From a virus: a stretch of DNA of 50,162 nt. Each line of letters starts with the position of its first letter. Positions within the stretch are counted from its first letter, which is position 1. Position numbers and translations under genes: made by a program. Of the stretch, positions 10,713 to 33,564 are shown piece after piece. The stretch is taken from IMG/VR virus record IMGVR_UViG_3300030101_003867, positions 1 to 50,162 of that record, one strand, 5' to 3'. The notes below the pieces were generated by a model. That model was given only the letters and a program-made list of their open reading frames with translations, did not search any database and was not told the origin of the DNA.

Positions 10713-11532
10713 AGCTTTATTAGCAAACCTATTACATTCTGCTCCTGAAAAGAAAGATAGAACGGGTATAGGTACATATTCTTTATTCGGCAGGCAAATT
10801 GAGCATGACATGTCATTAGGTTTTCCAATGTTAGTCGGAAAGAAAATGTATTTTAACCATGTTATATCAGAATTGTTATGGATATTAAATGGCAGAACTG
10901 ATATGGGTTATTTGCATGAGAACAATGTTCATTATTGGGATGATGATTATAAAAGATCAGGTCGTAAAGATGGAACATTAGGCCCTGTATATGGTGCGCA
11001 ATGGCGTGACTTTAATGGTTATGACCAGCTAATGAACTTAATATATAATATTATTGTTGATCCATCATCGAGAAGACACATACTAAGCGCATGGAGACCA
11101 GAAAAATTAAAGAATATGGTTTTGCCTCCATGCCATTATGCTATACAAGTAAATATAAATAATGACAAAATGGATTTGATGTGGATTCAAAGGTCTGCAG
11201 ATGTATTCTTAGGTTTGCCTTATGATATTGCAATGTATGGTATATTATTAGAATTACTTTGTGTCAATACAGATTATAAACCTGGTAAATTAATAGGGCA
11301 GCTGGGGGATTGTCATTTGTATTTAAATCATAAAGAAGCAGCCACGGCATACATATATAGAAATACAGATAATATAGATTTGCCTAAATTAAAAATACAT
11401 GGCAATGGTATTGTATTTAAGGGTGGCCACAGAAGTAATCCTGGTTTAGAAATACCAAAAAAGAAAAATTTCGAATTAATTAATTATAATCCTTTGCCAG
11501 CTATACCGGCAAAATTAAATGTTGGAAAATGA
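10687..11532 (+). CDS. thyA: Thymidylate synthase
   Basis: 281 aa, full length for ThyA. Key motifs: DRTGIGTYSLFG near residues 24-35, RRHILSAW at 129-136, catalytic Cys149 in LPPCH, RSADVFLGLPYDIAMYG for dUMP/folate binding, and GDCHLYLNH. It methylates dUMP to dTMP with methylene-tetrahydrofolate, supplying thymidine for AT-rich phage DNA. Part of a nucleotide cluster with MazG and ribonucleotide reductase. Start ATG 10687 lies inside the preceding gene, and the stop overlaps the next gene as ATGA. Confidence 0.96.
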   Translation: MTNIENQYRALLANLLHSAPEKKDRTGIGTYSLFGRQIEHDMSLGFPMLVGKKMYFNHVISELLWILNGRTDMGYLHENNVHYWDDDYKRSGRKDGTLGPVYGAQWRDFNGYDQLMNLIYNIIVDPSSRRHILSAWRPEKLKNMVLPPCHYAIQVNINNDKMDLMWIQRSADVFLGLPYDIAMYGILLELLCVNTDYKPGKLIGQLGDCHLYLNHKEAATAYIYRNTDNIDLPKLKIHGNGIVFKGGHRSNPGLEIPKKKNFELINYNPLPAIPAKLNVGK

Positions 11533-12374
11533 CATATTATTTATATCACATTCCAGGTAAAAAAATTGGTGTAACACGTGATCTTAATAAGAGGGTTACG
11601 CAAGTGCAGGGTTATAAACCTGGAGAATACGAAGTTCTAGAATCTTCTACAGATATTGATTATATATCTAAGAAGGAAATAGAACTTCAAAAGTCTTTTG
11701 GATATAGAAAAGACGATAAACTTTATAAAAATTTATTTAAAATGAAAATAAACGTAACCGAACAAACCACAACTTTTCCTGTAAAAGTAACTAAGCTTAA
11801 AGAAGCTTTAGAAAATGAACCAAATTTAATTTGGAAAACAGGATTTGGTAAAATTGCTTTGTGTCCAAAATTAACAAAATGGATAATAACAAATGCACAC
11901 GAGTCGAGATATAATAGCGAAAGAAGCTATGTATATAATAAAGCTTTATGGGAAGCATTTAGTGAAATAAATAGCTTAGAAAGCTTAATTAAACATGCAG
12001 ATAAATTCAAACCTGGTTCAACTGAAAAAGTTAATCATCAGTTATCAGACTTAGACTTAAATCATTTTGATTTAATTAGAGCTTGGGCTGCTGAAAGAGG
12101 TTTGTATGAAAAAGGTAATTCCCATACACAATATGTTAAACTTCAAGAAGAAGCCGGCGAATTAGCAAAAGCTTTACTTAATAAAGATAAACCTGAAATT
12201 AAAGATGCTGTTGGTGATATGGTTGTTGTATTAACAAACCTAGCATATCTTGAAGGATTTACTATCGAAGAATGTATCGAAACTGCTTATTCAGAAATAT
12301 CAAATAGAAAAGGCAAAATGATTAACGGTACATTTGTAAAAGAACTAGAAGTTCATGAGAAAGAAGTATTATAG
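11529..12374 (+). CDS. GIY-YIG-like domain fused to MazG nucleotide pyrophosphohydrolase
   Basis: 281 aa with two recognisable ends. Residues 1-65: YYLYHIPGKKIGVTRDLNKR, then Glu50 and QKSFGYRKD, following the GIY-YIG nuclease pattern (Y-x-Y, K-I-G-x-T, Arg, Glu). Residues about 180-270: a MazG-type all-alpha domain with EEAGELAKAL (Glu207, Glu208, Glu211) and EIKDAVGDMVV (Glu223, Asp226, Asp230), preceded by RAWAAERGLYEKG. The 100-residue middle is unassigned. MazG-like enzymes hydrolyse NTPs/dNTPs or (p)ppGpp to monophosphates, suiting host nucleotide control. Catalytic competence of the GIY-YIG part is unknown. ATGA overlap with thyA. Confidence 0.82.
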   Translation: MTYYLYHIPGKKIGVTRDLNKRVTQVQGYKPGEYEVLESSTDIDYISKKEIELQKSFGYRKDDKLYKNLFKMKINVTEQTTTFPVKVTKLKEALENEPNLIWKTGFGKIALCPKLTKWIITNAHESRYNSERSYVYNKALWEAFSEINSLESLIKHADKFKPGSTEKVNHQLSDLDLNHFDLIRAWAAERGLYEKGNSHTQYVKLQEEAGELAKALLNKDKPEIKDAVGDMVVVLTNLAYLEGFTIEECIETAYSEISNRKGKMINGTFVKELEVHEKEVL

Positions 12375-16287: not shown

Positions 16288-16752
16288 TTATATAGTTTTA
16301 TATTTTGTTTTGTTATTTTCATCTTTATAAGCTAATAAACATCTATTTCTATTTGCTTCTTCATTTACATAGCTTACATGAACCCAATCTGGGTTATCAG
16401 AATTTCCAAATTCCCATATCATCTGATCGAACGATAAATTATTTTTTATGTATTCAAACATTTCAGCATTAGTCATATATCCATAATTATCATCAATATC
16501 CATCGCTTGCCCTTTACAATGTTGCGAATTAGGTGACCCCCCAATTGCTTTATTTAATTCAGGTCCTCGATAAAATGAATTTATTTTTATTGGGCCGTTT
16601 GCTGCTTTCCTTAATGGTTCAAATACTTTTTCTGCTAATAACTCCATATTAGTTAAATGAGTTTTAGTAGGATTATTATTTAAACCTAATCTAAGTGCAG
16701 TTATGCTATACACACCTTCTTTATAAGTAACGTTTTCACTTATGTTTTTCAT
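16288..16752 (-). CDS. M15-type peptidase, putative endolysin
   Basis: 154 aa. Metal-binding pattern of the D-Ala-D-Ala carboxypeptidase / L-Ala-D-Glu peptidase M15 family: SQHCKGQAMD (His78, Asp85) and DWVHVS (His125), with INSFYRGPELN before. No signal peptide, so it would need a holin or similar to reach the periplasm. It cuts peptide cross-links of peptidoglycan for host lysis. Last gene of the late strand, directly after the second membrane/thioredoxin-like module, which supports that module being part of the lysis cassette. Confidence 0.88.
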   Translation of the reverse strand: MKNISENVTYKEGVYSITALRLGLNNNPTKTHLTNMELLAEKVFEPLRKAANGPIKINSFYRGPELNKAIGGSPNSQHCKGQAMDIDDNYGYMTNAEMFEYIKNNLSFDQMIWEFGNSDNPDWVHVSYVNEEANRNRCLLAYKDENNKTKYKTI

Positions 16753-16755
16753 TTA

Positions 16756-17079
16756 TTAATCTTTAAACAAAAGAAAATTAACTCTTTTTTGTATTTCTTC
16801 TAATGGAACATCTATTTTAAATGATAAATCAGCTTGCCATTGCCCTTTCGGTTTACCATCTTTTCCTATTATTACAATAGTAGGTACTGCTTTAATTTGT
16901 GATTTTAATTCTTCTTTTTGGTCTTCTAAATTTACCATTAATACTTTTGCATTACGTATTCTATCTAAATTATAATCATTTGATTGATTCCATTTTGCGT
17001 TAACATGTAATAATGTAATATCTTGTGCGCTTGCTACGAATGCAAACATTAATAATAAAATTGTAATTAAATTTTTCAT
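16756..17079 (-). CDS. Secreted cysteine-free thioredoxin-like protein, copy B
   Basis: 107 aa. Signal peptide MKNLITILLLMFAFVASAQ with cleavage before or after Gln as is common in Bacteroidota. The mature part has the thioredoxin-fold outline: strand ITLLHVNAKWN, strand KVLMVNL, a cis-proline position Pro66 in KAVPTIVIIGKDGKPKG, and a C-terminal helix. There is no cysteine anywhere, so it cannot be a redox thioredoxin; it may be a binding scaffold in the periplasm. Overlaps the membrane coiled-coil gene as ATGA. Paralogous in design to 18577-18912. Confidence 0.75.
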   Translation of the reverse strand: MKNLITILLLMFAFVASAQDITLLHVNAKWNQSNDYNLDRIRNAKVLMVNLEDQKEELKSQIKAVPTIVIIGKDGKPKGQWQADLSFKIDVPLEEIQKRVNFLLFKD

Positions 17080-17381
17080 CTTGTTATTTCGTAAATTTTA
17101 TCTGTATTTTTTTCTATTTGTTCTTTATTTTCTTGTATATCTTCTTTTAGCGTTTCAGTAGATTTTTCAATTTGTATTATTGTTGTTCTTATCAACTCAT
17201 CTTTAAGTTGAAATTCCATTTTTTTTACAAATTCTTCTGGGTTTTGTTGATTTTGCAATTCTTTAATATCACTTTGCAAAGTAAACCACATCCCCGCTAA
17301 AGCTATAGCTCCTGTAACAATTAATCCAATTGTTTTAAGGTCTAGTTGTACTTGAGTATCTTCTCCAATTTGTGTTGCCAT
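17076..17381 (-). CDS. Membrane-anchored coiled-coil protein, copy B (spanin/holin-like)
   Basis: 101 aa. N-terminus MATQIGEDTQVQLDLKTIG leads into one transmembrane helix (about residues 17-36), followed by a charged heptad-like coiled coil to the C-terminus (KSTETLKEDIQENKEQIEKN). 25 of the first 40 residues match the copy at 18912-19217. One N-terminal helix plus an exported coiled coil is the layout of inner-membrane spanins (Rz), and size also fits a holin. Neighbour of the endolysin; lysis role inferred. Confidence 0.72.
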   Translation of the reverse strand: MATQIGEDTQVQLDLKTIGLIVTGAIALAGMWFTLQSDIKELQNQQNPEEFVKKMEFQLKDELIRTTIIQIEKSTETLKEDIQENKEQIEKNTDKIYEITR

Positions 17382-17385
17382 ATTT

Positions 17386-18573
17386 TTATCTAAATGTAAA
17401 GTTTATGCCCACAGAAGAATTATAAATTTGTGAATCCCAAAATTTAGTATATTCTCCTTCAGCAAATATTCCAATTGTTTTACTAAGTTTCCAACCAAAA
17501 ATTATTCCTGCTTGGTAATCTTCCCACTGCTGTAGTTCAGCGTCTTTTTTTAATCCTCCTTTGCCCCAGTTATTTCGATTAAGATAACTTACATTTTCAT
17601 CGCCAGTTATATATTTATGATAGGGTAATAAATAGTTACCATAAGCATGAATCCAAAAGTTAGATCTATAATGGTAAAAATCAAATCCTACTATGGGTGC
17701 AACTTCACCAAAAGGATCTAATAAATCCCATTGTTCTTTATTATATAAATTCATAAGATCACCAAATATTGTATTACGGAAATCTTTATCACTCCAAGCA
17801 ACTATTTCACCATTAACATCTTTCCATATCCAATCATATCTTTCTTCACCTGTGTTTATATCTGTATATTTTGTAAAATTATCAGTATAATCATATTTAT
17901 ACCCAAGACTATACCATGGGTTTTTAGGATATTCATTGCCAAAATCATCAACTTCGGTTTCATTTAACCATATTTCTATAGGGTTATAACCATAAGGTGT
18001 TTGGTGTGTTCTATAAATTGCGCCCGCTGATAAGCTAAACTTTTTACCAATAGGTAGTCTTGCTCTAACTTCTGCAGATTGATATTTAAAACCAACATTA
18101 CCTTGCTCTCTTTGTTCTAATTTAATAATATGATATTTACCTACGTGCCTTATAAAAAATCTAGAATTAAAAAATTCTTCTCCACGATCTCTTTCTTTTT
18201 CATAATGAAATAAATATTCTAAACCCTTAACAGAAGAAGTTGGCGCTGCTAAAGATTTATTATTTTCTGTGCCATTATAAAAATTAGGTTTATTTTCATA
18301 TCCAAATCTAGCTAATTTTCTAAATCCAACACCAATCCTATAATCCATTGGATAATAATTAGTTACGTCAATTACTCTTGGTATACCATATAAATCATCA
18401 TCTGCTGGTCTTTCTACAAAATAATCTTTATATGTTTGTTCATATGCGTTTGAAGCATCACCAGCTACATAAAATGTTCCGTATTTTAAAAAGTCTTTAT
18501 ATAATTCTTTTAAAAATTGTGCATTTGAACTAAATGAAATTAATAAACAAAGTACTAATAATAGTTTTTTCAT
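17386..18573 (-). CDS. Secreted outer-membrane beta-barrel-like protein
   Basis: 395 aa. Signal peptide MKKLLLVLCLLISFSSNAQ with a Bacteroidota-style cleavage site. The mature chain is rich in Tyr, Phe, Trp and Gly with alternating polar/hydrophobic strands (FSLSAGAIYRTH; FWIHAYGNYLLPY; AGIIFGWKLSKTIGIFAEGE). It ends in SSVGINFTFR, a terminal aromatic strand typical of barrels recognised by the BAM machinery. No enzyme motif seen. It lies between two membrane/thioredoxin-like modules and is expressed late, so it may disrupt the outer membrane at lysis or block adsorption of other phages; both are inference. Confidence 0.75.
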   Translation of the reverse strand: MKKLLLVLCLLISFSSNAQFLKELYKDFLKYGTFYVAGDASNAYEQTYKDYFVERPADDDLYGIPRVIDVTNYYPMDYRIGVGFRKLARFGYENKPNFYNGTENNKSLAAPTSSVKGLEYLFHYEKERDRGEEFFNSRFFIRHVGKYHIIKLEQREQGNVGFKYQSAEVRARLPIGKKFSLSAGAIYRTHQTPYGYNPIEIWLNETEVDDFGNEYPKNPWYSLGYKYDYTDNFTKYTDINTGEERYDWIWKDVNGEIVAWSDKDFRNTIFGDLMNLYNKEQWDLLDPFGEVAPIVGFDFYHYRSNFWIHAYGNYLLPYHKYITGDENVSYLNRNNWGKGGLKKDAELQQWEDYQAGIIFGWKLSKTIGIFAEGEYTKFWDSQIYNSSVGINFTFR

Positions 18574-18576
18574 ATG

Positions 18577-18912
18577 TTAAAATTTATCGGATAGTATTTC
18601 GTCTATAGCTTTTTCTATCCTTGCTGTTGTATTTTCGGGAAGTTTTAAAGTTACACCCGATTCTATTTTTAATATTTCTTCGCCATCATGAAATAATATA
18701 ACAGTTGGTATATATATTATTTTTTCATTTGTAAAATGATCACTATGTTTACTTAAATAAAATAAATGCGTATTATGATCATTAAATTTTTTTAATGATA
18801 TTTCGTTTTCTTGTACAAATTCAGCGCTAAACTGAACAACTGATATACCATCTTTATATTGTGAATAACTTGATACTGTTAATAATAGTAATAATAATTT
18901 TAAATATTTCAT
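18577..18912 (-). CDS. Secreted cysteine-free thioredoxin-like protein, copy A
   Basis: 111 aa. Hydrophobic signal MKYLKLLLLLLTVSSYSQ, then strand GISVVQFSAEFVQEN in the place where thioredoxins have F-x-A-x-WC-x-x-C, strand HLFYLS, Pro69 in IIYIPTVILFHDGEEI (cis-Pro site), and a C-terminal helix. No cysteine remains. The same layout as 16756-17079 but only distantly similar in sequence. Start overlaps the preceding membrane gene (TAATG). Structural or binding role in the periplasm is likely; target unknown. Confidence 0.75.
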   Translation of the reverse strand: MKYLKLLLLLLTVSSYSQYKDGISVVQFSAEFVQENEISLKKFNDHNTHLFYLSKHSDHFTNEKIIYIPTVILFHDGEEILKIESGVTLKLPENTTARIEKAIDEILSDKF

Positions 18913-19217
18913 TATCGATTTTTTTGCAGATCGTATAAGCGCTCATCTAACTTTTCTAATGTTATTTTCATAGATTCTACATCGGATTTTATTGCTTCCA
19001 CATCTTTTTGCGTCAATTCAATTGTTTGACGAATCATTTTGTCTTTATACTGAAACTCAACTTCACTAACAGGCGCTTTAGGCAATTGTTTGGCTTCTTC
19101 TATATCAGCAGCCATAACAAAATACATACTCGCAAGCGATATTGCTCCGAATACAATAATTCCTATTGTTTTAAGATCTAATTTTAATTGAGTATTTTCT
19201 GAAATTTCTGTTGCCAT
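18912..19217 (-). CDS. Membrane-anchored coiled-coil protein, copy A (spanin/holin-like)
   Basis: 101 aa, MATEISENTQLKLDLKTIG, then a transmembrane helix (about 17-36, GIIVFGAISLASMYFVMAAD), then a charged coiled coil (KDVEAIKSDVESMKITLEKL). Same length and architecture as 17076-17381, with the N-terminal 40 residues 25/40 identical: a duplicated gene. Upstream leader is purely A/T (ATTATATTATAT before ATG). First gene of the envelope cassette; possible i-spanin, holin or partner of the secreted thioredoxin-like protein encoded next. Confidence 0.72.
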   Translation of the reverse strand: MATEISENTQLKLDLKTIGIIVFGAISLASMYFVMAADIEEAKQLPKAPVSEVEFQYKDKMIRQTIELTQKDVEAIKSDVESMKITLEKLDERLYDLQKNR

Positions 19218-19236
19218 ATATAATATAATTAATTAC

Positions 19237-19515
19237 CTATTTTCCTCTTCTTTTAACATTTTTTACTCTTCTTGGTTTACCTGCTGGTTGCCCTAATCTT
19301 TTTTTCTCTGCTATCTTAGCTCTTTTCTCTGCGGCTGACATTTCACCGGCCGTTTTAGGGGTTTTACTTGATATTCTTTTGCTTGGCCTGCAGTACGGCG
19401 TACCTCTTCCTTCACCTTTACGTCTTCCGCACGGCTTACCTGTTCTTACATCAATCCATTTTTCTTTAAACCAACGTTTAAGATCTAATCCTTTTTTAGT
19501 TTTTCTTACTGCCAT
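19237..19515 (-). CDS. Lys/Arg-rich small protein, DUF5872-like
   Basis: 92 aa. Contains KEKWIDVRTGKPCGRRKGEG and GTPYCRPSKR, the pattern of DUF5872 (W-x-D...PCGR...YCRPS), then a Lys/Arg/Ala-rich tail ending RRGK. Two cysteines in conserved spots could bind metal. Very basic, so probably contacts DNA or RNA. One of five consecutive small basic genes between the giant internal protein and the lysis cassette; overlaps the next upstream gene by 20 bases. Confidence 0.72.
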   Translation of the reverse strand: MAVRKTKKGLDLKRWFKEKWIDVRTGKPCGRRKGEGRGTPYCRPSKRISSKTPKTAGEMSAAEKRAKIAEKKRLGQPAGKPRRVKNVKRRGK

Positions 19516-19744
19516 TTAATAATTTTTTTACTTTATTTCTAGTACATACCATTTTTTTAGCATAACTAGGATTCTTTTTTCTATTAAAAACATATTGTTG
19601 ATTTAAACTGCCAACAATTTTACGCATATTACCTTTTCTAGATTTAATCATCCATTTAGCTAATGCTCCGCAAGATAAATTTTTAAATTTGCCTTCCGCG
19701 TCAGGGGCGTCTGAGTCTTTCCAAGTGGGTCTATTTTTTGCCAT
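19496..19744 (-). CDS. Lys/Arg-rich small protein (82 aa)
   Basis: 82 aa: MAKNRPTWKDSDAPDAEGKF, then LSCGALAKWMIKSRKGNMRK and YAKKMVCTRNKVKK. Strongly basic, with two cysteines. The composition and the 'SCGALAKWMI' helix suggest a small folded nucleic-acid-binding protein. No named family recalled. Overlaps neighbours on both sides (20 and 14 bases), so the cluster is translated as a coupled string. Confidence 0.65.
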   Translation of the reverse strand: MAKNRPTWKDSDAPDAEGKFKNLSCGALAKWMIKSRKGNMRKIVGSLNQQYVFNRKKNPSYAKKMVCTRNKVKKLLNGSKKN

Positions 19745-20012
19745 GTTTTCTTCTAACTTTATTTTTACAAGCTGTAGCTATTTTGGACTGAGCAGGTTTT
19801 TTACCATAACGAGCTCTTTGTTCCATTACAGTTAATATTTGTATTTTTCTAGCAAAAGGTTTACTAGATTTCATAACCTTAGAGCAAGTAGCAGTAGCAT
19901 CTTTTACAGTTGCATATTTTATACGCATCGTATCTTTAGGATTTTCATCCGTATATAAACGCCTGCTACTCCCTTTAGGTTTTTTTCCAGTTCCTTTTTT
20001 AGGATCAGCCAT
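19731..20012 (-). CDS. Lys/Arg-rich small protein, DUF6321-like
   Basis: 93 aa with about 28 basic residues. KKGTGKKPKGSSRRLYTDEN, then PKDTMRIKYAT and KPFARKIQILTVMEQRARYG, match a family frequent in cyanophages and other marine phages (DUF6321 as I recall it): a disordered basic head followed by a small helical domain. Probably nucleic-acid-binding and possibly packaged in the virion. Start overlaps the neighbouring small gene stop (shared base at 20012). Confidence 0.72.
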   Translation of the reverse strand: MADPKKGTGKKPKGSSRRLYTDENPKDTMRIKYATVKDATATCSKVMKSSKPFARKIQILTVMEQRARYGKKPAQSKIATACKNKVRRKHGKK

Positions 20013-28576: not shown

Positions 28577-29821
28577 TTAACTTGATCTTACTATGTTATG
28601 TGAAACTGTGAATAATTCCACGTCCTGTAAACTTGTGTTGTGAGACATTTTAACTGTTGAAATAAAACCTTTTAACCCGGTAGCATCAACGCCTATAATT
28701 TGGTTTTGACCTGGTATTCCGGCTTGAGCCCTAAGGGGAGCATAATATTTATTTTCTTTTTTTATAAACTTAATTGGTATTACTCCTGCTGGAGAAGCAT
28801 TTGTATCTCCCAATATTCTAAAAGCTCTATTTTCTAAATCTGTTATTGAAGAAGCCATTTCCCAACCAGAGCTTCCCTCATAATTTATTGTATTATAATT
28901 TTTAACTACAGAGGGGCTATTGTTTACAATAAAAGTAATATTACTTTCAGAGTAATTATCATAAAAAGTATTTTTTTTGCCATCAATTTCTGTATAATGT
29001 TTCCAAATATCATTATCTTTAAATGTGAAAAACTTTTTATTTATACTAAATCCAAAATCAGGATTGTAGCTATAAAAACTAACCCATCCTCTAGATTGTT
29101 CGTCAAATGATAATGTTTTAAAAGTATCATTTTTAGGGTTTGATGGAGATATATTTTTTATGTTTAGTACATAAGAGTCAGAAACATCGTCATACATACC
29201 AATAATAGCATCAGCAGTTTTTAAATTATCTTTAAAAAAATCGCGCATACCCGCTTGAGATATTTCAGTTATGCCATCTCTTGATAGCCTTAATATTGCG
29301 CCTCTATTTTTATCTGCAAAATATTTTCTATTACCCTTTACAGCAAAGCTTTCAGGGTTTTTACTTATTCCATATTTACCAGAATAAGGAACTATTTGCC
29401 CTATAACTTTAGCACCTGAAGCTGTAAGATTACCGCCTTCTGCGGTAAATATAGCGTCTTTATCTATAAGAGCATAACTAACTTTATCTTCTTGAAATAT
29501 ATTTAAATTGGTATCTTCCGCATGTAGTTTTTGTATACTACCGTTTGCAGAATCCACTGCTCTTGTAATTTTTTCTCCAGCACTAAATACATTTGTCTTA
29601 TTAATATCAGTTCTTGAATTATAAATACCAGAATATATTAGCGCATTGCTTCTTCTATTTTCTTCATAATTTTCATTAGTAGCATAAGCTTTAGGCCCTA
29701 ATCCAGCAGGTAAACTATTAAAATCGCCTTTTATTCTTGATTCCTCAACAAATACTTTATTATTTGTAGCACTTCTAAGAATAAATGTATTAAAAAACTG
29801 TATATCAACTACGTATGCCAT
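28577..29821 (-). CDS. Tail nozzle-like protein, second part
   Basis: 414 aa, beta-rich. Ordered segments such as SNALIYSGIYNSRTDINKTN, NGSIQKLHAEDTNLNIFQED, KNPESFAVKGNRKYFADKNR and GAILRLSRDGITEIS are features I recall from the C-terminal half of tail 'stabilisation/nozzle' proteins of marine Bacteroidota phages. The repeated RG-x-x-L-R-L-S-x-DG blades suggest a beta-propeller. It follows directly on the N-terminal-half gene (29854-33564), so together they may build the tail tip. Assignment by pattern and context. Confidence 0.7.
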   Translation of the reverse strand: MAYVVDIQFFNTFILRSATNNKVFVEESRIKGDFNSLPAGLGPKAYATNENYEENRRSNALIYSGIYNSRTDINKTNVFSAGEKITRAVDSANGSIQKLHAEDTNLNIFQEDKVSYALIDKDAIFTAEGGNLTASGAKVIGQIVPYSGKYGISKNPESFAVKGNRKYFADKNRGAILRLSRDGITEISQAGMRDFFKDNLKTADAIIGMYDDVSDSYVLNIKNISPSNPKNDTFKTLSFDEQSRGWVSFYSYNPDFGFSINKKFFTFKDNDIWKHYTEIDGKKNTFYDNYSESNITFIVNNSPSVVKNYNTINYEGSSGWEMASSITDLENRAFRILGDTNASPAGVIPIKFIKKENKYYAPLRAQAGIPGQNQIIGVDATGLKGFISTVKMSHNTSLQDVELFTVSHNIVRSS

Positions 29822-29853: not shown

Positions 29854-32800
29854 TTAAGCCGGCTGTTTAGACCTAACAACACCATCACTACTTGATTTAA
29901 ATGTAAATAGCGCTTGTTGAGGTCCTGCAAAATTAGGTCCATTCATAGAAAAGAATAACCCTCCAAATCCTTGATTATTACATCCCGTACTAAATGGATT
30001 AGTACCCGCAGAATCAGTGTACACGATATCGCCTTCATCCGGCGTTGGTTGAGTTTTATTTGCACCTGATTCTCTTTTAAAATATGCAACAACACCAGTT
30101 GGTTCATCACCCGCGGTTGATTGCACACTATTACCTGATTGAGCTCTATAAAAAGCAACAAGTACAGTTCCTTGTACTAATATTCTTAATGTTGTATTAG
30201 GGCTACTTAATCCTGCGCCATTTAAATCTGTAACTTTTAGCGTTAAAGTATCATCCATACCATTTGTTAATTCTACTCCAGCAGTTATTAAACCCGTTGT
30301 AGAATTTATTATATATCTTCCAGCATTAGTTTGAGACACAATAGAAAAATTAAGCCCTCTTGTTGCGTCAGCTTTACCCCCATTTATTCCTGTTATTTGT
30401 AATCCAGTTGAATTTCCTGATAACATTGCGTTTATAGTTCTACCAGTTGTATTATTAGTATTATTAGCTTGGCTAGCAAGCGGCCCAACATTTATACTGG
30501 GGGCTACATTCGTTATATTTATAGTATATGTAAAGTTTTTAGAATCTGATGTACCAACTTTTGTTGTTGTTATTGTTACAGTATAATTATCTTGCTGATT
30601 ATTTTTAAAATCAAAAGTAGACGCTGTTACAATATTTTGTCCGCTAATACTAAACGTGCCAGCTCTTGCGGCACCTGTTCCATCTACAATATTACTTACA
30701 ACATGAGTAACGCTTGAATTGCTACCTTGTCCGTCCATAGCTGTCCCCGAAGCATTTGTAGTAGCTAAAGTTCCAACTGTTGTTCCAGATGCAGCGCTTT
30801 CAGCCACAGAATTAGCGCTTAAAGTTTGATTTACAGGAACATCCCCGGCACTAGCATTTATTTGTTCATTTAAATCTGCAATTAAGCCACAAGAAGAGGT
30901 TTCAAAATATATATCTATAGCAGAAATAAAAGGAAATGTTTCAAAAACATTAAAACTAAAACCGGCCCTATTTAATCCAACGGCGCTTGCAAAATTACTA
31001 TGCGAATCCCCTACCAAAGTTCCTCCAGTATTAGATGATGTAAAAGAAATAGGGTATCTTTCAGGCAGCTGAGCTAACAAAGGGTCATTTTTAGATTTAA
31101 ATATTGCTTCTAATACTTTATTAGAATCATTGGCATTATTGCTGCTTATGTCTTGTGTAAGATTAAACTCTCTAGCCGTGCCAATTGATCCTACGTTTAT
31201 AAATTCAGGAAACCTATTTACAGCTAAACCATCAAATCTATTAGAGGGCGATTGATTAATAGTTTCATCAATAATTACTGGCAGCAGTCTAGCGTTAGAT
31301 CCTGCAATACCGGTTTCAGTACTGCTTTCATTTACATCTCTAGGCACCTTATTAATATTATCACCATTTAAATAAACATATGTTTTTTCAGGATCTAAAG
31401 TTTGGCTAGCTCTAAAAACTTGAGGAGTATAAACATTATAATAATCTTGTTCAGTTTGTTTTACAACAATTCTATATGAATACCAACCCAAGGGATTGTA
31501 ATTATTACTGTTTATATCATTATTATAAGCATCATTTAATGCTTCATTAAAGCTAAGTCTTAAACAATTATGATTCCAGTTGGTATGGCTAACATCGACA
31601 TTAGAGCTTTTTCTTTCTGAAAATGTTGTTGAATTACTTGGTAAAATAACAGGAGATTGTCTTCCATATCTATCAGATAATACAACACCTACAGAATAAG
31701 TTCTTCCTGATTTTATAGATGATAATAAATATTGTTTATTTTGAGCAGCTTGCCCGCTTGTACTAACAGCTAATTTAGAAGTATTTATAACATTATTTAT
31801 AGATCTATTTTGCAAAAAATTACCATATATAATTCTATTTCCAGAGACCTCTTGTGTTTTTGCTTTAATAGGAATAATATCAGAAACTCTAATTATATCT
31901 GCTTCTGGTAAAGTTTTTAATGGTTTTGTAGATTTATAAACGTATTGATGCTTATATCTTAATCTAGCTATTCCTAACACAGGTGATCCATCAACAATAG
32001 CTGGAGGTTTAATTACTTCAACAGTAGGCTTTATATTAAAATTACTTTGAGGTATCTTTATTCTATCAACAACTTTAATAGCAGTACTGTCAGATTCAGT
32101 ATATAATATTTCAATTTCTTTTATTTTTAATTTATTTTCCCAAGAATATTGAGGAGATGAGCCTATGTTAAAAAAATATAAATTTGTATTATCTGCAATT
32201 GTTGGAGTTATAGCTGTTGTAGTATCAAAATCACTGCTAGTTATATTACCTTCTACTGTATATAAATCATCATTGCTTGTTAATAATATGTTATTAGCAG
32301 CAATTGTTCCGGAAACGGTGTCTATAGCATGATTTTCATCTCCAGTTAACCCAGAACCATTATTAACTTTAGCGCTAGCATGATTAGTTATATTATCATC
32401 AAATGGTAAAATAATATCCAAAGTTATTTTATTAGCTTTGTTTACCATATTTTCAACAATACTTTCTTTAACAGCATTCTCCATGTCCTCATTAGTCATA
32501 ATACCAGCCATAGCAACACCTGAAGTTGAATATGTTCCGTCATTAAATGTTTGAGTAGGTTTACCAGGATGAAAAGTATGCTGTGTAAAAGGAGATATTA
32601 AAGAATATTCATTATTATGATATTTAAATCTATATGCGAATTTTACAAACTCTTCTTCTATATGTTTACTTTTTATAGTAGCGTCATATTCCATAGTAAC
32701 TTTAGGAGATGTATATGGCGCATATTGTGCTACACTTATTTTATCTTCTAAATAAATATCATCGGTGTATTCATTAGCTATTGCATCAGTTATATTTATT

Positions 32801-33564
32801 CTTCTTGGTTGATTATAATTGTCTGTCCAAAATAATAAATCATCTATTCTATTAATATTAATTATATTATGAAGAGTACTAAAATTTAATCTTTTACTAT
32901 CTATTATTGCTACGGGAGGATTGGTATTTGGATTTTTAATATTTTTATAATATATTCTACAAATAAATGTGTTATCTGCAAATTGTATAGCGCTTGAATC
33001 GTCATTTATATTATTTGGAGTAAAATTTGTTACAAAATAAAATACATCACCAGTTAATGGATCTGCATAATAACCTATTGTTTTAAGATTAAAAGAAAAG
33101 AATAAAGTATCACCTTCTTTTGCGTTGCCGCTGCCATCTTGATTTCCAACAGAATTAAATCCTGTAGGAGAAACATTTACTATAGTATTACCGCTACTAA
33201 CAGAAACTGACGTAACTCTTCTTATATCATATTTATTTTCAATATCTCCTTGACCTATACTAGCAGAATTTCTAAGCCCTCTAACAAACATATTAGGCTT
33301 TATTATTGCAGTATTATCACCAGAAATAGATATACTATTAGATGTATCTATACGCGAAGAAAAACTTACTTCACTAAATCCTAGTGAAGTTGTATATTCA
33401 GCATATTCATTACCTTTAATATTTTGAACAGTTCCTACATCTGAATTTTCAGATTTTGAAACTGTTATATTATTAGCATCTCTATATTGTCCATTAGGTA
33501 ATATTCTATCATCAAGGTCTTTGTTCATTTTACCTTGAATAAAATTATTTTTTATTTCTGGCAT
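29854..33564 (-). CDS. Tail nozzle-like protein, first part, with cadherin-like repeats
   Basis: 1236 aa. The N-terminus MPEIKNNFIQGKMNKDLDDR, then ILPNGQYRDANNI and SDVGTVQNIKGN, is a hallmark of phage tail nozzle/tubular protein B-like proteins. A long beta-rich body follows to about residue 860. Residues about 880-1130 change composition to Ser/Thr/Asn/Gly-rich cadherin-like repeats (FDFKNNQQDNYTVTI; INSTTGLITAG; LTLKVTDLNGAG), as in surface adhesion modules. The last 100 residues hold two close cysteines or isolated Cys in GCNNQGFGG. Likely a tail tip component with a host-contacting insert. Confidence 0.75.
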   Translation of the reverse strand: MPEIKNNFIQGKMNKDLDDRILPNGQYRDANNITVSKSENSDVGTVQNIKGNEYAEYTTSLGFSEVSFSSRIDTSNSISISGDNTAIIKPNMFVRGLRNSASIGQGDIENKYDIRRVTSVSVSSGNTIVNVSPTGFNSVGNQDGSGNAKEGDTLFFSFNLKTIGYYADPLTGDVFYFVTNFTPNNINDDSSAIQFADNTFICRIYYKNIKNPNTNPPVAIIDSKRLNFSTLHNIININRIDDLLFWTDNYNQPRRINITDAIANEYTDDIYLEDKISVAQYAPYTSPKVTMEYDATIKSKHIEEEFVKFAYRFKYHNNEYSLISPFTQHTFHPGKPTQTFNDGTYSTSGVAMAGIMTNEDMENAVKESIVENMVNKANKITLDIILPFDDNITNHASAKVNNGSGLTGDENHAIDTVSGTIAANNILLTSNDDLYTVEGNITSSDFDTTTAITPTIADNTNLYFFNIGSSPQYSWENKLKIKEIEILYTESDSTAIKVVDRIKIPQSNFNIKPTVEVIKPPAIVDGSPVLGIARLRYKHQYVYKSTKPLKTLPEADIIRVSDIIPIKAKTQEVSGNRIIYGNFLQNRSINNVINTSKLAVSTSGQAAQNKQYLLSSIKSGRTYSVGVVLSDRYGRQSPVILPSNSTTFSERKSSNVDVSHTNWNHNCLRLSFNEALNDAYNNDINSNNYNPLGWYSYRIVVKQTEQDYYNVYTPQVFRASQTLDPEKTYVYLNGDNINKVPRDVNESSTETGIAGSNARLLPVIIDETINQSPSNRFDGLAVNRFPEFINVGSIGTAREFNLTQDISSNNANDSNKVLEAIFKSKNDPLLAQLPERYPISFTSSNTGGTLVGDSHSNFASAVGLNRAGFSFNVFETFPFISAIDIYFETSSCGLIADLNEQINASAGDVPVNQTLSANSVAESAASGTTVGTLATTNASGTAMDGQGSNSSVTHVVSNIVDGTGAARAGTFSISGQNIVTASTFDFKNNQQDNYTVTITTTKVGTSDSKNFTYTINITNVAPSINVGPLASQANNTNNTTGRTINAMLSGNSTGLQITGINGGKADATRGLNFSIVSQTNAGRYIINSTTGLITAGVELTNGMDDTLTLKVTDLNGAGLSSPNTTLRILVQGTVLVAFYRAQSGNSVQSTAGDEPTGVVAYFKRESGANKTQPTPDEGDIVYTDSAGTNPFSTGCNNQGFGGLFFSMNGPNFAGPQQALFTFKSSSDGVVRSKQPA

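Follow-up and report, generated by a model that had tools for sequence, protein, structure and literature searches.

The locus described here raises the question of what a candidate outer-membrane barrel, two membrane-anchored coils and two thioredoxin-like (Trx-like) proteins do beside the endolysin of a phage. In known systems the outer-membrane step of lysis falls to spanins, in which a lipoprotein forms the outer-membrane end; a survey of spanins left open the possibility that an outer-membrane protein could act as the o-spanin, and about 13% of the phages surveyed had no recognisable spanin (PMC6139136). We analysed a 50,162-base virus record (IMGVR_UViG_3300030101_003867, positions 1-50,162), the whole of which is called the window below. 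An earlier note on this DNA had judged that no described lysis system has the composition of the cassette, and we likewise found none in the open-access literature.

Results

The cassette comprises six genes, all on the minus strand, whose ORFs lie at the positions and in the order first reported: coil A (101 aa, 18912-19217), Trx-like A (111 aa, 18577-18912), the barrel (395 aa, 17386-18573), coil B (101 aa, 17076-17381), Trx-like B (107 aa, 16756-17079) and an M15 peptidase endolysin (154 aa, 16288-16752; PF08291, E=2.7e-13; phrog_894 endolysin, E=2.7e-28). The starts overlap within each coil/Trx pair, as had been noticed, by 1 base in pair A (18912) and by 4 bases in pair B (17076-17079). 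Conservation over about 100 contigs and dN/dS values that stay below 1 in each of the six genes (0.05-0.5 in comparisons with four relatives) exclude chance as the source of the cassette. Three small, strongly basic proteins (19237-20012, minus strand; net charge +18 to +26), one of them a DUF5872 protein (PF19197, E=5e-15), are encoded between the cassette and a 2017-aa protein.

Because its portal matches phrog_6547 (E=1e-157) and the product of 28577-29821 (minus strand) matches the Crassvirus muzzle (PF25731), we take the window to be a phage of the crAss-like group or one related to it. The annotated relatives nearest by portal are an uncultured spring phage (54%), Maribacter phage Panino (47%) and the Flavobacterium elemo phages (44%). 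The muzzle-type protein appears to be split in the window, as the adjacent genes at 28577-29821 and 29854-33564 (minus strand) each match a separate portion of phrog_14478, a virion family of 1474 positions. Elsewhere in the window, the gene at 11529-12374 (plus strand) joins a MazG pyrophosphohydrolase domain to an N-terminal part that weakly matches T5orf172 (E=0.0013).

Each coil begins with a short hydrophilic N-terminus, followed by a single hydrophobic segment and a charged, heptad-patterned tail, from which we strongly predict a transmembrane segment in the inner membrane and a periplasmic coiled coil. By hydropathy and heptads this would be the architecture of an i-spanin, and coil B has a weak match to the Rz-like spanin family phrog_1152 (E=0.0037). 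The two coils are homologues, with 46% of residues identical over 101 aa (E=8e-30); counting by eye from the translations, we found the same 25 identical residues among the 40 N-terminal ones as had been reported. Cysteine is absent from both coils and from the mature barrel of the window, as it is from 144 of 164 coils and 110 of 124 barrels overall.

The protein between the two pairs had been put forward as an outer-membrane candidate, and three lines of evidence agree with this. It carries a signal peptide; an AF2 model built on a 74-sequence alignment is barrel-shaped, with 12 long strands (mean pLDDT 84, pTM 0.75; an earlier, weak model had reached pLDDT 68, and the rise came with the 74-row alignment); and Foldseek matched the model mostly to outer-membrane barrels, for example NanC. 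A beta-barrel with an even number of amphipathic, antiparallel strands is strongly predicted from the model. Between strands 7 and 8, residues 191-287 form a confidently folded insertion of 97 residues. The barrel sequence had no significant match in Pfam or PHROG and no match in a PDB sequence search; its top match in the viral library was A0A516LKJ4 (E=5e-24, 28% identity). In an alignment, podo-type barrels (L069:4202-5266, L054:4479-5540 and relatives) show an acidic loop insertion containing a DLN(D/E/N)NGxID stretch, which we take to resemble a calcium-binding loop. At L003:6001-7191 two ORFs of 177 and 122 aa take the place of a single barrel gene between intact neighbours, owing to a frameshift or an assembly error.

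Both Trx-like proteins carry signal peptides. Compared directly, they are only weakly similar (20%, E=0.006), and iterated profiles started from either one gather the same 83 proteins, which makes them one family. A profile of the family (21 rows) matched solved thioredoxins in the PDB (best E=3.2e-5), and the family member at L080 scores above the cut-off of PF00085, the Pfam thioredoxin family. The proteins thus have the thioredoxin fold, with a proline at the cis-Pro position. They differ from the thioredoxin superfamily in being secreted and in lacking the CXXC active site, which was found in none of the 102 family members; Trx-like A has no cysteine at all. A redox role was rejected for want of CXXC. 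At the active-site position all 56 downstream-type members have [F/W]NxxN, and Trx-like B of the window has WNQSN in place of the WCGPC of thioredoxin. The loss of CXXC is, together with the secreted topology, strongly predicted.

The earlier note had called the module duplicated. The homology of A and B stands, and a recent event does not: the Trx tree parts members encoded upstream of the barrel (as Trx-like A) cleanly from those encoded downstream (as Trx-like B) with one change, placing the two in old position-specific clades and ruling out a recent tandem duplication. For coils A and B, likewise of the upstream and downstream type, the coil tree needs three changes for the same split. Taken together, the trees make pairs A and B old paralogues. 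Both Trx types hold crAss-like and sipho-type members, which makes it probable that the module has passed from one phage group to another.

The module is widespread in marine phages and is not a local oddity. An alignment-based scan of IMG/VR gave at least 567 loci encoding barrel relatives, of which 80 were kept, and eight further barrel loci lay on contigs assigned to marine MAGs, some archaeal in name; L083, L084 and L087 bear such names (Woesearchaeota, Nitrosopelagicus). The MAG-assigned contigs look like wrongly binned phage contigs. The main group held 106 loci after removal of repeat contigs, and linkage was counted over 56 well-flanked loci with at least three genes on each side, related loci being counted individually. 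In 55 of the 56 the barrel has a coil no more than two genes away, a figure to be read with the fact that, while most loci were retrieved by the barrel query, some came from a coil query, which biases toward coil linkage. A Trx-like gene lies within three genes, also in 55 of 56, and 23 of the loci have at least two coils. The same cassette had been proposed to lie next to endolysins in other phages, and so it does: an M15 or amidase_2 endolysin is found within five genes of the barrel in 46 of the 56 loci (82%), compared with about 22.5% of genes being equally close to an M15 peptidase or amidase in seven such records. An amidase_2 lies just downstream in two further loci (L086, L117), and an M15 peptidase a few genes farther off in three (L122, L133, L161). 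A conserved module linked to endolysins is, on these counts, strongly predicted.

Two observations had been named as capable of overturning the proposal. Occurrence of the modules away from lysis genes was seen in part, as five of the 56 loci (L139, L144, L157, L158 and L160) have no wall hydrolase nearby. L139 stops at the contig edge, L144 has the module among tail genes, and L157, L158 and L160 form one lineage, in which it stands among unidentified genes; a T4-like identity for these three is not supported. The other, homologues shown to be virion proteins, did not materialise, none being annotated as such. A structural role in the virion was rejected given the signal peptides of the barrel and Trx-like proteins and the lack of a match to any annotated virion family.

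Gene order varies between carriers. Sipho-type phages have coil-Trx-barrel-endolysin followed by a holin with three transmembrane segments (3TM, GTA-type), crAss-like phages have barrel-coil-Trx-endolysin, frequently with a lipoprotein, and the double-flank order coil-Trx-barrel-coil-Trx-endolysin occurs in the window's clade and in a set of sipho-type phages. The carriers are not close kin, as the neck, tape-measure and portal families of the sipho-type phages differ from those of the window, and the endolysin partner varies (M15, amidase_2 or, in a long-coil group, T4-type lysozyme) around a constant module. A third group (L053-L079) has coil and barrel with no Trx-like protein, its barrels being 27-29% identical to that of the window. 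Coils in this group are 154-162 residues long, as against 92-106 elsewhere, and form one clade, hence one event. A T4-type lysozyme lies near L067 and L072, and in L069 and L071 a protein with a weak SLT match is encoded between coil and barrel. A search of the podo-type records found PF00959 only in the record of L067, an SLT-like match only in L069 and L071, and amidase_2 in none; with matches so sparse, the linkage to lysis is weaker in the podo-type branch.

Barrel, coil and Trx queries run with tblastn gave only weak matches (E 0.4-0.6) and brought up no cultured phage that carries the module. Module profiles likewise found no module in phages P2559S and P2559Y or in stretches of elemo, Panino and ctfjg026. 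Among 399 bacterial genomes in the family of the L085 genome, the only carrier was a contig already known.

Within the longest-ORF set of the window nothing resembles a lipoprotein, and nothing matches LipoA. A lipoprotein-like ORF lies within six genes in only one of 31 sipho-type loci, and with none near the other 30 the barrel is left as the obvious outer-membrane protein there. Of seven more records that are complete or nearly so, five, a 55-kb sister record included, also have none, and the other two, G421 and G422, have one short, low-quality candidate each. A lipoprotein-like ORF is also encoded near 16 of 25 usable crAss-like loci, where it might be the real o-spanin. In six crAss-like records, possibly incomplete, in which the barrel was not found, a lipoprotein precedes coil B (in L032 it comes straight after the endolysin), giving the order lipoprotein, then coil-coil-Trx.

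No clear holin other than the coils was seen in the window, so that one coil may act as holin there; the separate 3TM holin of the sipho-type cassettes means that the coils are not needed for this purpose in those phages. Croceibacter phages P2559S and P2559Y are listed as spanin-less (PMC6139136). These two (L166:27508-28065 and L167:22998-23621) and elemo (L058:1724-2278) encode near the endolysin a similarly built protein, in which a hydrophobic segment at the N-terminus is followed by a middle part and, toward the C-terminus, by a few beta-like stretches ending in F or W. By its layout this protein could be a one-piece anchor in both membranes.

Discussion

In the sipho-type cassette, with the inner membrane and the wall assigned to holin and endolysin, what is left is a barrel, an i-spanin-like coil and a secreted adaptor, which favours a spanin-like complex. 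We therefore read the module as a lysis complex that spans the envelope and has, at the outer membrane, an integral beta-barrel and not a lipoprotein, a reading to which we give slightly less than an even chance. The coils would be anchored in the inner membrane and extend their coiled-coil part into the periplasm, the redox-dead Trx-like proteins would serve as periplasmic adaptors, and the barrel would be seated in the outer membrane. After the action of holin on the inner membrane and of endolysin on the wall, the linked parts would bring the two membranes closer to each other or tug at the barrel, and the outer membrane would open. Action late in infection, binding of coil, Trx-like protein and barrel to each other, and disruption of the outer membrane are what we infer. 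Rather more tentatively, the module may be a new class of machine for disrupting the outer membrane, in which a barrel coupled via an NxxN redox-dead thioredoxin to an inner-membrane coil replaces or complements the lipoprotein o-spanin. A bridge would fit the apparent exchange of barrel and lipoprotein as well as the greater coil length in the group lacking the Trx-like protein.

Two-component spanins (lambda Rz/Rz1, T4 PseT.3/PseT.2) resemble the module in having an inner-membrane protein with an N-terminal transmembrane segment and a periplasmic coiled coil, in standing beside the endolysin, in the overlaps with the next gene and in the presence of an outer-membrane partner in the cassette. 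The module differs in that this partner is an integral barrel instead of a lipoprotein, in its third, thioredoxin-like part, in its cysteine-free coils and in showing no significant sequence relation. Both a lipoprotein and the periplasmic cysteine that is near-universal in known spanins were looked for and are lacking from the window's cassette; we do not claim membership of the spanin family. Like the unimolecular spanins (T1 gp11), the module would link both membranes, yet it consists of several proteins, in none of which a lipobox or a C-terminal transmembrane segment was seen. The barrel model shares strand number and, by Foldseek, overall fold with 12-stranded outer-membrane barrels (NanC/KdgM, autotransporter beta-domains), from which it differs in sequence (<10% identity), in its big folded insertion and in being found only in phages within our searches.

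Some observations weigh against the spanin-like reading, namely the five loci with no nearby hydrolase, the mostly cysteine-free coils and barrels, the lipoprotein-like ORF near many crAss-like loci and the want of another clear holin in the window. The greater coil length in the Trx-less group is, moreover, a single event. By the usual topology the modelled 97-residue insertion would sit in an outward-facing loop, and a simple bridge needs none. The conserved insertion would suit a barrel displayed late, placed by coil and Trx-like protein, that remodels the outer membrane and stops phages from adsorbing to the dying cell or its debris, and the few loci away from hydrolases are compatible with such superinfection exclusion. 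Phages do encode adsorption-blocking porins near their lysis genes, as in the Lc porin of phage PA-2. Exclusion nevertheless leaves unexplained why a coil and a redox-dead periplasmic protein are kept with the barrel in nearly every well-flanked locus, and why coil-coil-Trx occurs barrel-less next to a lipoprotein; we consider it unlikely.

The T4 class III holin T is a protein with one transmembrane segment and a periplasmic domain, and its antiholin RI is a periplasmic partner. By analogy the coil could be a T-kind holin and the Trx-like protein its periplasmic regulator, both setting lysis timing, with the barrel separate; one coil of the podo-type has a weak match to a holin family in PHROG (E=1.8e-4), and the overlap of coil and Trx genes and the want of another clear holin in the window point the same way. 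This we regard as quite improbable, since no sequence relation to T or RI was found, the constant third part of the module is a barrel, sipho-type cassettes have their own holin and the long-coil group keeps the barrel with no Trx-like protein at all. The module may also serve outside lysis, for example in take-over of the host envelope or in nutrient uptake, and lie in the late region by mere position. The placement of L144 among tail genes and of L157, L158 and L160 with no hydrolase nearby would agree with this, but the repeated linkage to several endolysin families and to a holin makes such a role quite improbable too.

The idea of an outer-membrane protein acting as o-spanin is already published (PMC6139136); what is new is a conserved candidate system with a pseudo-thioredoxin, the conserved motif of which is open to mutation. 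The spanin-like complex proposed here gives that idea a concrete, recurrent candidate, present in hundreds of uncultured marine phage contigs. If the proposal is true, it would account for how at least some phages that have no recognisable spanin achieve lysis and, if confirmed, the module would represent a third way of breaking the outer membrane.
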